NCBI RefSeq assembly: GCF_018860705.1
Contig: NZ_JAHKQA010000009.1
Coordinates: forward strand, 1-38,721
DNA from: Citreicella sp. C3M06
GTDB taxonomy: Bacteria; Pseudomonadota; Alphaproteobacteria; Rhodobacterales; Rhodobacteraceae
Reading direction: 5' to 3'
Length of the DNA stretch: 38,721 nucleotides
Positions 1-38,721 of the stretch are shown here, piece by piece. Positions within the stretch are counted from its first letter, which is position 1. The number at the start of each line of letters is the position of its first letter. Position numbers and translations under genes: made by a program. The notes beneath the pieces were generated by a model. The model saw nothing but the letters and a program-made list of their open reading frames with translations. It did no database searches and was not told the origin of the DNA.

Positions 1-366
1 GGCTCTGTTGCACAAAGCCGCTGATGGCCAAGCGGCCCCTTCCCCCGGACACACTTATCCTACAGCCTCGGTCACGGGTATGCCGAGTGCGGTGAGGCCG
101 TTCATGACGGCGACACGGATCTGTAGCTCGGCGACTTGGCGGTCAGGTTCTCGCGCCATGAGGCGTTGGCCCAACAGCTTCATGCAGTTCATTTTGGTCT
201 CAGCGCGACTTCGGCGATGGTAGCCTCTCCACTTCCGCCAAATCCTTCGTCCCAGGCGTTTCGATGCGCGGAGGGCTTCGTTGCGGGCAATCGCGCCTGC
301 GCTGTCGGGCTTCCAGAACTTGGCGTTCTTGCGGGGCGGGATGACGGCATGGGCGCCCCGGTTGGC

Positions 367-403
367 CCCTCTCGTGCATGTAAACATGCACTGCCGGGCA
401 GTG
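367..403. repeat. 37-bp palindromic insert, copy 1 (in IS transposase)
   Basis: On the plus strand it begins CCCTCTCG (367-374), has a 16-base palindrome TGCATGTAAACATGCA (375-390) and ends CTGCCGGGCAGTG (391-403). It separates codons DAI and ANRGAHA of the transposase; deleting exactly 37 bases rejoins them in frame. Its orientation relative to the transposase is opposite to copies 2-4. Confidence 0.9.
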
Positions 404-610
404 GATGGCATCGTGGCATTTGCGCATATCGTAGGCGCCGTCCGCGGTGACACTGCCTATCTCCTGATCGGGCGGGATCTGGCCCAAGAGTTCCGGCAGA
501 ATGGGCGCATCGCCGATGTCACTGCTGGTGAATTCGACGGCGCGGATTTCCAGCGTTTTTTCGTCGATCCCGAGGTGAACCTTGCGCCAGATACGGCGTT
601 TCGGGCCACC

Positions 611-647
611 CATTGCCCGCCAGCACATGCTTGCATGTGTGAGAGGG
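611..647. repeat. 37-bp palindromic insert, copy 2 (in IS transposase)
   Basis: Read on the minus strand it begins CCCTCTCA, has the palindrome CACATGCAAGCATGTG (624-639) and ends CTGGCGGGCAATG. It aligns without gaps to copy 1 in length and end sequences, while the central palindrome differs but stays self-complementary. It interrupts the transposase between ARKH and GGPKRRIW; removing 37 bases restores the frame. Confidence 0.9.
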
Positions 648-701
648 ATGCTTGCGCGCATTCCATTCTCCTTCACCCTCGACCTTGATCCCGGTGCTGT
701 C

Positions 702-742
702 CACTGCCCGGCAGGGCATTTCGAAGAAATGTCCCGAGAGGG
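702..742. repeat. 41-bp palindromic insert, copy 3 (in IS transposase)
   Basis: Read on the minus strand it begins CCCTCTCGGG, continues with the hairpin ACATTTC-TTC-GAAATG, and ends CCCTGCCGGGCAGTG. It lies between transposase codons ALHLLN and DSTGIKVEG; excision of 41 bases restores the frame. It is nearly the same as copy 4 in a different IS at the other end of the window, differing in the hairpin tip and the last bases. Confidence 0.9.
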
Positions 743-898
743 GTTCAGCAGGTGCAGTGCGCCTTGCGATCCTCGATATGGGATGTTCACGGCGAGGGTT
801 TTCTGGCGGCGTGAAAGCGTGCTGAAATCCGGCACCGACCAGTCCAGCCCGCTCAACTGCAGAAGGCTTTCGACGAAGCCTGTCGTTTGCCGGGTCGT

Positions 899-935
899 CA
901 TTGTCGCTCGGACCAATGGCGCGAACAATGACGAC
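899..935. repeat. 37-bp palindromic insert, divergent copy (in IS transposase)
   Basis: This insert has the same 37-base length and also breaks the frame, between FGM and TTRQTTGF, but its sequence differs from copies 1-4. Only the CATTG end resembles copy 2. Its arms GGTCGTCATTGT and ACAATGACGACC are perfect 12-base complements and extend into the flanking transposase codons. The exact ends are ambiguous because CAT is repeated. It may be a second family or a strongly diverged member. Confidence 0.72.
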
Positions 936-1413
936 CATGCCGAAAAGCACTTTCATCGTTAGGCAGGTCTGGATCGCGGCGTCGCTATAGATGGGCTGCC
1001 GACCGCGCTTGCCAGTCGGTTTGGCCTCCCACGTCAACTCGGGGTCGAACCAGACCCTCAGCGAGCCCCGGCGCTTGAGCGCTTCGTTGTAGGCCCGCCA
1101 GTTCTTGATCTTGTAGGTCGGGGGTGTCGGTCTGCTCATCCCCTCCAGTTATCGCACTGGATTCGCAAGCTAAATCCCTCACAGGCTTTGTGCAACAGAG
1201 CCCCGCCGCACCGCGCTGCGCCGCATGGCGGGCGTGTAGATGACAGGGGCAGTAGCCAACAGATAGACCGTATATCGGACGCCCGCACCGCCCATAGCCA
1301 CGGTTCGCGTTGAGGAAAGTTTCATTGGCAAAGAAGGCAGCATTAGTGAACCTCATTAATGCTAAACCATTGATATCCATGTGATGCTAAGGAAGACTTG
1401 AGTGACAATTCAC

Positions 1414-37996: not shown

Positions 37997-38222
37997 GCGG
38001 GTGATCGATGGTGATCATTCGAAGCTGCGGGCGCATGGCCCTGCCATGTCTGCTTTGAGCCGGTGCCGTTGAAAACGCACTGGCGATCTGCTCTTCGGGA
38101 TGATGATTCTAGGGATATAGGGGGCTGCAATCCTGGCGCCCAAATGATCGGGCTTTTCGGCCAATCAACACCGCAGGGGTACTCACCTCAGCGAGCTTGG
38201 CCAATTTCCTTTCGGTCAGGAT

Positions 38223-38721
38223 TCATCCCCAAAAGATGAAGAGAGTCGCGAGCGCGATGGTGGAAAGGAAGACCTTGCGGCAACGGTCGTAGCGGGTGGC
38301 CACACGCCTCCAGTCCTTGAGCCTGCTGAACATGATTTCGATGCGTCGCTTGTCCCTTGCCCGGCAGGGCATTGCAAAGCAATGTCCCGAGAGGGGTACT
38401 TGACCGGTGTCTTGCGTTTCTTCCGGCCAGGGATACAGGCGCGTATCCCCTTGTCCTGCAACGCTTCTCTGAGCCGGTCAGAGTCGTAGCCACGATCCCA
38501 AAGCAGCCATTTGACGTTTGGTAGGCCGCTGAGCAATGCGCGCGCGCCGATGTCATCGCTGACCTGTCCGACGGTGCTGAACAAGTCGATCGCTCGTCCC
38601 TGACTGTCGCAGATGGCGTGCAGTTGCTATTCATGCCGCCTTTGGTTCGACCAATCAGACGGCCGAGGCCAGCCTGGCCATCATCGGGGCGAAGACGCCT
38701 TTCCCGCTCCAACCTTTCCAC
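38223..38721 (-). pseudogene. IS5-family (IS427-like) transposase, frameshifted and cut by window end
   Basis: Minus-strand DDE transposase, C-terminal two thirds visible. A one-base loss after GGMNS (near 38629) and a 41-base palindromic insert (38355-38395) break the frame. With both corrected it reads GGMNSKLHAICDSQGRAIDL, then VGQVSDDIGARALLSGLPNV, KWLLWDRGYDSDRLREAL, KTPVKYDKRRIEIMFSRLKD and ATRYDRCRKVFLSTIALA. Candidate catalytic residues are the Asp in WDRGYD and the Glu in RRIEIMF. The IS ends are not identified in the window. It belongs to a different IS5 subgroup from the element at 1-1202. Confidence 0.9.
38355..38395. repeat. 41-bp palindromic insert, copy 4 (in second IS)
   Basis: Read on the minus strand: CCCTCTCGGG, then the hairpin ACATTGC-TTT-GCAATG, then CCCTGCCGGGCAAGG. 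It differs from copy 3 at only a few positions although it sits in another IS subgroup. Removing 41 bases joins TPVKY to DKRRIEIMF in frame. A slightly different boundary is possible, because known relatives have a few more residues at this point. Confidence 0.87.

Follow-up and report, generated by a model that had tools for sequence, protein, structure and literature searches.

Short hairpin insertions of the CCCTCTC family in transposase genes of Rhodobacterales

A stretch of 38,721 nucleotides from Citreicella sp. C3M06 (hereafter the window) contains an insertion sequence (IS) whose transposase gene is broken by four short hairpin inserts. Three of them belong to what we call the CCCTCTC family. 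Our analysis revealed that this is a real and abundant family of micro-palindromes of the REP kind in marine relatives of Roseobacter, remarkable for its residence mostly in transposase genes, its readable target, its companion kinds and the ISs that multiply despite it. Its members are precise insertions, mostly of 37-43 bp, with fixed ends, a variable but compensated hairpin, an asymmetric target and no target duplication. Different hairpins are found at one and the same nucleotide, near-identical ISs are polymorphic for them, and they reside mostly in transposase genes. We propose, with a probability of about 0.64, that the family consists of non-autonomous, REP-like mobile hairpins, probably transposed as single strands. 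An earlier note had described palindromic micro-inserts in this gene. Its observation is confirmed, and its interpretation is partly supported.

An IS5-family element with four hairpin inserts

The features of the window are collected in Table 1. The window IS measures 1202 bp, compared with 1049-1129 bp in five aligned relatives. Piece 404-952 of its transposase gene is matched by the Pfam domains DDE_Tnp_1_5 and DDE_Tnp_1. The earlier note had placed three inserts at 367-403, 611-647 and 702-742, and their coordinates, their ends and their occurrence in both orientations are all borne out. It had also treated the insert at 899-935 as a fourth member of the family. This grouping stands for the first three, but the fourth has other ends and is another kind of hairpin. 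On comparison with the intact ISSpo9 frame, each insert does shift the reading frame, and removal of the four blocks does leave a 310-codon transposase with no further frameshift and no stop. At the far end of the window, the sequence of the element at 38355-38395 recurs on three other contigs of the source genome (C50, C100 and C79), with right flanks that are 79-85% alike.

Table 1. Features of the window, with positions counted from its first base
Feature	Position	Strand	Remark
IS5-family insertion sequence, ISSpo9-like	1..1202	-	terminal inverted repeats 1-27 and 1176-1202; arms 89% complementary
Transposase gene broken by four hairpin inserts	58..1139	-	alignable with the ISSpo9 transposase over its full 310 codons
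CCCTCTC-element, 37 bp (CCCTCTC-GTGCATG TAAA CATGCAC-TGCCGGGCAGTG)	367..403	+	site empty in 5/5 aligned relatives
Target motif GATGG adjoining right end of 367-403 element	404..408	+	consensus of 228 sites
CCCTCTC-element, 37 bp, reverse orientation to 367-403	611..647	-	site empty in 5/5 aligned relatives
Target motif, GGTGG on element strand, adjoining right end of 611-647 element	606..610	-	
CCCTCTC-element, 41 bp, hairpin with bulged base	702..742	-	site occupied in 10/23 aligned IS copies
Target motif, GACAG on element strand, adjoining right end of 702-742 element	697..701	-	
37-bp hairpin insert of a second, unrelated kind (kind E, core CTCGRACCRRTGGCG)	899..935	not assigned	
Second, different IS, start only, cut by contig end, with CCCTCTC-element	38200..38721	-	boundary approximate
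CCCTCTC-element, 41 bp, right end CAAGG in place of CARTG	38355..38395	-	inside second IS

A blastn comparison of the window IS with annotated plasmids matched 365 records, 111 of which cover at least 80% of the IS. The alignment analysed here comprises the window copy and five relatives, namely ISSpo9 of Ruegeria pomeroyi and copies from Thioclava, Rhodovulum, Leisingera and Sagittula. ISSpo9 and the Thioclava copy are intact and about 1050 bp long. The window copy is longer than these two by blocks of 37, 41, 37 and 37 bases. Aligned with the two intact relatives, the junctions of the four blocks are clean, and no target duplication is found at the empty sites. The inserts might have been native sequence, as the earlier note had considered, or else decay debris or an assembly artefact. 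The clean, unoccupied sites in named intact relatives, together with ends and a target common to many genomes, refute these explanations, to which we give practically no probability.

Occupied sites were compared among homologous ISs. In the Leisingera and Sagittula copies, a 41-bp insert with different hairpin arms occupies the exact nucleotide of the window insert at 702-742, whereas the two inserts of the Rhodovulum copy are of other kinds. Across 23 aligned ISSpo9-like copies there are 50 internal inserts of at least 25 bases, 39 of the CCCTCTC family and 11 of other kinds. At reference base 360 of this IS, ten copies contain an element, and nine distinct cores are represented among the ten. 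Among 115 same-site pairs with a mean flank identity of at least 65%, which are not independent of one another, 47 have cores less than 80% alike, some of them with flanks more than 80% identical. Both patterns occur: some pairs with flanks about 70-80% identical have identical cores, and others with flanks 80-91% identical have different ones. From this overlap, distinct insertions at one nucleotide seem to be common in homologous ISs, and single same-site pairs may reflect compensated evolution in place. Presence of an insert also varies between IS copies of about 99% identity, with the site empty in L250 and L252 and filled in L249 and L256.

A different arrangement is found in L057 (element E26) compared with L069 (E50 and E52). 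Here a single IS copy combines the left flank of an element with the right flank of the following one, as would result from recombination between the two elements with loss of the intervening DNA.

Ends, hairpin, target and spread of the family

The elements share the layout CCCTCTC, variable compensated hairpin, TGCCGGGCARTG. The ends CCCTCTC and TGCCGGGCARYG (in one case TGGCGGGCAATG) are present in 164 elements, which were chosen by those ends. These elements, each with a unique context, yielded 124 distinct cores, which were folded arm against arm. Stem pairs are 90.5% Watson-Crick over the 124 cores. When arms were swapped between elements of equal length (200 trials, with length classes of fewer than three cores omitted from this control only), the mean was 67.2% and the maximum 71.0%. 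The compensating hairpin of the earlier note is therefore borne out by covariation in the stem. This covariation is stronger evidence for the hairpin than energy folds of single DNA copies, which are modest, with z values between -1.1 and -2.3 for the four members of the family in the window and -1.0 for the insert at 899-935.

The best fold contains one bulged base in 71 of the 124 cores. The bulge is at the fourth position in 63 of these, and the base is A in 56 of the 71. On the CCCTCTC...TGCCGGGCARTG strand, A.C non-pairs outnumber G.T by 52 to 17, and by 27 to 1 at the closing pair. An excess of A.C on this strand equals G.T (or G.U) wobble on the other. We infer that the folding strand is CAYTGCCCGGCAG-hairpin-YGAGAGGG, where the bulge would be mostly a T on the 3' arm.

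No Rfam match was found at the elements in the first 1400 bases of the window and in eight loci, and the sub-threshold matches lie elsewhere or beside them. No relative of greater length with the same ends was seen. Of 247 right ends, seven are without a recognisable left end. Most of these seven look like copies with a worn left end, and an autonomous element is visible beside none of them.

The target was read from 228 deduplicated sites. Elements at contig edges without 150 or 70 bases of flank were excluded before the counts made in this study, as were duplicates sharing 12 bases of either flank. Successive positions of the right flank are G in 78%, A in 73%, T in 62% or C in 27%, G in 62% and G in 46% of the sites. 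The left flank is C in 77% at position -1, with little preference further out. The target is C/GAYGG, with the slash marking the insertion point, and is strongly asymmetric. On the folded strand, CCRTC is located immediately 5' of the element.

Lengths at these sites span 30 to 45 bp, with 107 elements at 41, 35 at 37 and 26 at 43. Only 29 of the 228 are divisible by three. Rickettsia palindromic elements are also palindromic, alphaproteobacterial and located inside genes. They are read through in frame and are found in ordinary genes. The CCCTCTC elements could likewise be protein-coding palindromes kept in frame, and they do lie as palindromes inside coding sequence. However, their lengths are mostly not multiples of three, the window inserts shift the frame, and the identified host genes are mostly transposases. 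This reading is refuted for the family as a whole and has next to no probability.

In the source genome (5.01 Mb, 106 contigs), the pattern CCCTCTC-N8-34-GGGCARTG matches 34 times and the reversed pattern 0 times, which excludes chance. One of the 34 matches, at C51:62519, is without the TGCCGGGCA core and is itself taken as chance, and five weak matches were set aside by eye. The family is present in 76 of 292 Rhodobacterales genomes, which represent 46 of 112 genera; the control gave a single hit. The 76 holders contain between 1 and 84 copies, with 84 in G075, 52 in G162, 32 in G285, 29 in the source genome and 26 in G181. A scan over 84,980 species genomes found at least 117 stretches with the family. 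Among the matches listed, nearly all are from genera that belong, in part presumably, to Rhodobacterales, or are titled Rhodobacteraceae. The exceptions among them include Vreelandella neptunia, two Labrenzia, Cohaesibacter, a Robiginitomaculum MAG and a Planctomicrobium MAG; the match in the last of these has no hairpin. Read errors are not a credible source of inserts that recur in so many genomes and stretches. The earlier note had called the element mobile or actively dispersed. This is supported by the clean empty sites, the target motif, the range of copies per genome and the polymorphic IS copies of about 99% identity.

Other hairpin kinds accompany the family, and their patterns were counted in 1.34 Mb of loci and in the same sequence reversed. 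Kind B (AGGAGGATCA...CCCGAC, 43 bp) has 5 matches vs 0 and kind C (GGGACCGTGGC...AAGCCC, 43 bp) has 3 vs 0, both with few examples. Kind E (TCGCC...CTCGRACCRRTGGCG...GGCTCA, about 40 bp) has 20 vs 0, and its pattern is present in 38 of the 292 Rhodobacterales genomes with no control hit. A hairpin similar to the insert at 899-935 is located in Thioclava indica (L140), apparently at the same IS site. Kind B is found at L191:1001-1043, near position 1140 in L347 and L348, and in L113 and L168, in the same IS5 transposase genes. In L347, L348 and L113 it seemingly occupies one common site. Kind C is found at L242:1670, L168:6323 and L237:1569. Two 61-bp palindromic inserts in transposase genes (L167 and L146) were labelled kind D. 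They were not retained as a counted family, since their pattern is too loose (127 matches vs 99 in reversed sequence).

Host genes and multiplication of insert-bearing ISs

Both flanks of 227 distinct sites (700 bases each) were translated in pieces and compared with 16 Pfam-identified seed pieces. The seeds were taken from the element flanks themselves. Fifteen contain a transposase or integrase-core Pfam domain (rve, DDE_Tnp_1, IS66, Transposase_mut, Y2_Tnp, IS110 or Y1_Tnp), and one (L092) contains only helix-turn-helix domains. Direct seed matches were found at 144/227 sites and at 5/40 control positions from the same loci, which are IS-rich. After one propagation step, transposase sequence is located beside 173/227 sites vs 8/40 controls (Fisher test), and on both sides of 102/227 sites vs 0/40 controls. 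Further propagation steps label 190/227 sites, but propagated labels may drift and the one-step count is preferred. A Pfam scan of 27 of the 37 leftover sites identified eight transposases (IS110 and DDE_Tnp_1/DDE_Tnp_1_6 types) and none at the other 19, which brings the sites with transposase to 198/227. The host transposases span at least seven Pfam kinds.

Among the flanks annotated, a subset of all flanks, no clear interruption of an ordinary host gene was found. One RelE and one TraG-type domain are present in 131 flank pieces (25 of 33 families tallied), and in L039 the element adjoins alanine racemase. Orientation to the coding strand is mixed, with 54 and 42 of the 96 sites that have coding-like flanks on both sides.

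Three genomes, G162, G181 and G285, were selected for multi-copy insert-bearing ISs. G162 contains eight full-length IS5-type copies. All have one common insert, and four have a second insert whose site is clean and empty in copies about 99% identical outside it. G181 contains eight copies of a 1305-bp IS3-type IS in differing surroundings, with two inserts in each, and a 78% relative of this IS is likewise interrupted. G285 contains seven full-length IS copies, 99-100% alike, with five inserts each (four of the CCCTCTC family and one of kind C), and two partial copies. No insert-free full-length copy is found among the 23 in these genomes, which comprise 4-8 contigs each. The multiplication of such ISs implies either a helper transposase acting in trans, or inserts that leave the gene unsilenced.

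Helpers were sought in G181 and G162 by DNA similarity only. In G285, 18 matches were obtained when the first 101 residues served as a protein query, and the IS and its fragments account for 13 of these. Open frames among the matches reach at most 199 aa, compared with 310 codons. Of the remaining five matches, two contain a 43-bp insert of kind B. In G097, three copies have inserts. Related ISs at 70-77% identity are numerous there, shorter and consistent with no inserts, and they could be helpers.

Two further arrangements were observed in these genomes. In G162, two insert-bearing IS copies (L287 and L289, C1:4795250-4797093) are in direct tandem with a common junction. In G181, three of the eight near-identical copies (L271-L273) share nine substitutions in 43 bases at unit positions 1073-1115, a cluster that suggests gene conversion.

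If the gene is not silenced, the inserts would be silent in expression. They would be skipped in translation, as the byp elements of yeast mitochondria are, or cut from the RNA as micro-introns, and the transposase would still be made. Mitochondrial byp elements and the T4 gene 60 bypass are short hairpin inserts that break the frame of a gene. Unlike these, the CCCTCTC elements are found in both orientations to the gene. The insert-bearing state of all full-length multi-copy ISs (8/8 in G181, 8/8 in G162 and 7/7 in G285) and the short open frames in G285 are consistent with silent inserts. On the other hand, the three genomes were picked as multi-copy, and G097 has possible helpers.

Decay of the host genes bears on the same question. 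Thirty ISSpo9-like copies were checked against the intact frame. Sampling was not random, since the copies were found via the element or, for the plasmid ones, via their likeness to the window IS. The set includes the two intact references and 27 copies with at least one insert of at least 30 bases. Apart from its four inserts the window copy is free of lesions, and six of the 27 (window, L148, L191, L192, L213 and L214) are without another frameshift or stop, as silent inserts would allow. However, the other 21 contain further frameshifts or stops. In a comparison aimed at purifying selection after insertion, codon position 3 accounts for 26/52 differences between copies more than 95% alike, above one third (p = 0.009), but for only 133/351 between copies less than 95% alike; both counts are noisy, with frames guessed from openness and GC3. 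The mixed orientation and the small share of lengths divisible by three also argue against silent inserts. Such inserts should moreover reach ordinary host genes, where no clear case was found. We consider this reading quite unlikely.

Mobilisation and relation to known palindromic elements

The earlier note had suggested a RAYT-like or other transposase as a companion to look for. No Y1_Tnp (PF01797) match was found in the source genome, nor in G162 (52 copies) or G285 (32 copies). At 14 Y1 loci elsewhere, which represent 13 distinct places, no Y1 gene is flanked by elements. In the sole Y1 locus with an element (L264:532-1007 in G075), the element is located at the end of an IS200-type Y1 gene and looks like an insertion. 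A RAYT or Y1 transposase as a linked mobiliser is therefore not supported.

The elements could also be ordinary REPs that are moved by a RAYT-type Y1 transposase of some Rhodobacterales and reach the others inside horizontally moving ISs. The family is indeed present in 15/30 genomes with a Y1_Tnp match vs 61/262 without (Fisher p = 0.003, 292 genomes), although IS load may confound this correlation. The richest genome, G075 (84 copies), has ten Y1 matches, and the chemistry-like features of fold and target fit. However, the source genome, G162 and G285 are rich in copies without a Y1 match, and in G162 insertions vary between copies of about 99% identity. Only one of the 13 distinct Y1 places contains an element, located at the gene end as an insertion, and the family has no GTAG or CGTC tag. 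We regard this origin as unlikely.

The reading that we prefer is of non-autonomous, REP-like mobile hairpins. As judged from its anatomy, an element would move as a folded single strand. The strand 5'-CCRTC/CAYTGCCCGGCAG-hairpin-YGAGAGGG/G-3', with slashes at the junctions, would sit 3' of a short target. IS608 provides a precedent, in which a folded strand with a bulged T is inserted 3' of a short fixed target without target duplication. A hairpin whose 3' arm contains a bulged T, together with the absence of duplication, is what IS200/IS605-type (HUH) chemistry would give. The mobilising enzyme would act in trans. Transposase genes would be where insertions survive, and the ISs would then copy the inserts around.

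Several observations stand against these mobile hairpins. The C at -1 makes the target less one-sided than the IS200/IS605 comparison expects, which lowers our confidence slightly. Simple neutrality does not explain the scarcity of copies outside ISs. Neither a Y1_Tnp match in the source genome, G162 and G285 nor an autonomous relative with the same ends is seen. ISs with one to five inserts multiply, an outcome unexpected of inserts that inactivate the transposase, barring an overlooked helper.

The family resembles several known systems in part. It shares with IS200/IS605 elements (Y1 HUH) and their derivatives the lack of target duplication, the short fixed target and the hairpin with a bulged T. 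It differs from IS200/IS605 in the added second-side preference, and from these and PATEs in the absence of a Y1 match in the source genome, of separate left and right end hairpins, and in its small overall size. Like MITEs, the elements are small, non-autonomous and dispersed. Unlike MITEs, they lack target duplication; terminal inverted repeats in common with a known DDE element were not seen, nor was a parent IS with these ends.

The closest likeness is to REPs and REPINs. As described in PMC3733652, these are heterogeneous palindromes of 20-40 bp with an unpaired conserved motif beside the stem, and several families occur together. The earlier note had called the elements far smaller than REPs; this is wrong by the REP lengths given there. 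Their size is ordinary, and placement inside transposase genes is the unusual feature. The CCCTCTC family differs from REPs and REPINs in its end motifs, CAYTGCCCGGCAG and GAGAGGG, in its readable target motif and in the missing Y1 match of the source genome. The same paper distinguishes GTAG-tagged and CGTC-tagged REPs. GTAG-tagged REPs are mostly extragenic, whereas 173/227 CCCTCTC sites are beside transposase sequence. The selected elements, with ends CCCTCTC and TGCCGGGCARYG, have no GTAG at the hairpin foot, and no Y1 gene is flanked by them as in GTAG-tagged REPs with a RAYT. CGTC-tagged REPs prevail in alphaproteobacteria, apparently without a dedicated transposase (PMC3733652), and in both respects the CCCTCTC family is similar. 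They are defined there by a CGTC (TGTC/CCTC) tag, a stem of 8-9 bp and mostly a CCA tail, whereas the CCCTCTC family has neither this tag nor the CCA tail. The main text of PMC3733652 contains no mention of Rhodobacter, Roseobacter, Paracoccus or the string CCCTCTC. No published description of the family was found in the open-licence literature, which is weak evidence of absence, and the family is apparently undescribed.

Bacterial palindromic repeats are known mostly from intergenic DNA, and there is no settled account of how the majority spread. The present set offers more than 200 insertions in well-aligned genes, many with natural empty sites. It gives direct access to the choice of target, the strand and the compensation, and a comparison of near-identical genomes provides a route to the missing enzyme. 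In practical terms, CCCTCTC inserts split transposase genes in annotations. The multiplication of ISs with up to five inserts poses a choice between a helper in trans and tolerated inserts. On a bolder view, which we hold to be distinctly improbable, Rhodobacterales would possess a set of mobile hairpins, the CCCTCTC family and at least three other kinds, that are specialists of transposase genes and are neutral there, with the product made across the hairpins. If true, these would be bacterial micro-introns or bypass elements riding on ISs, and an IS with five of them would still multiply.
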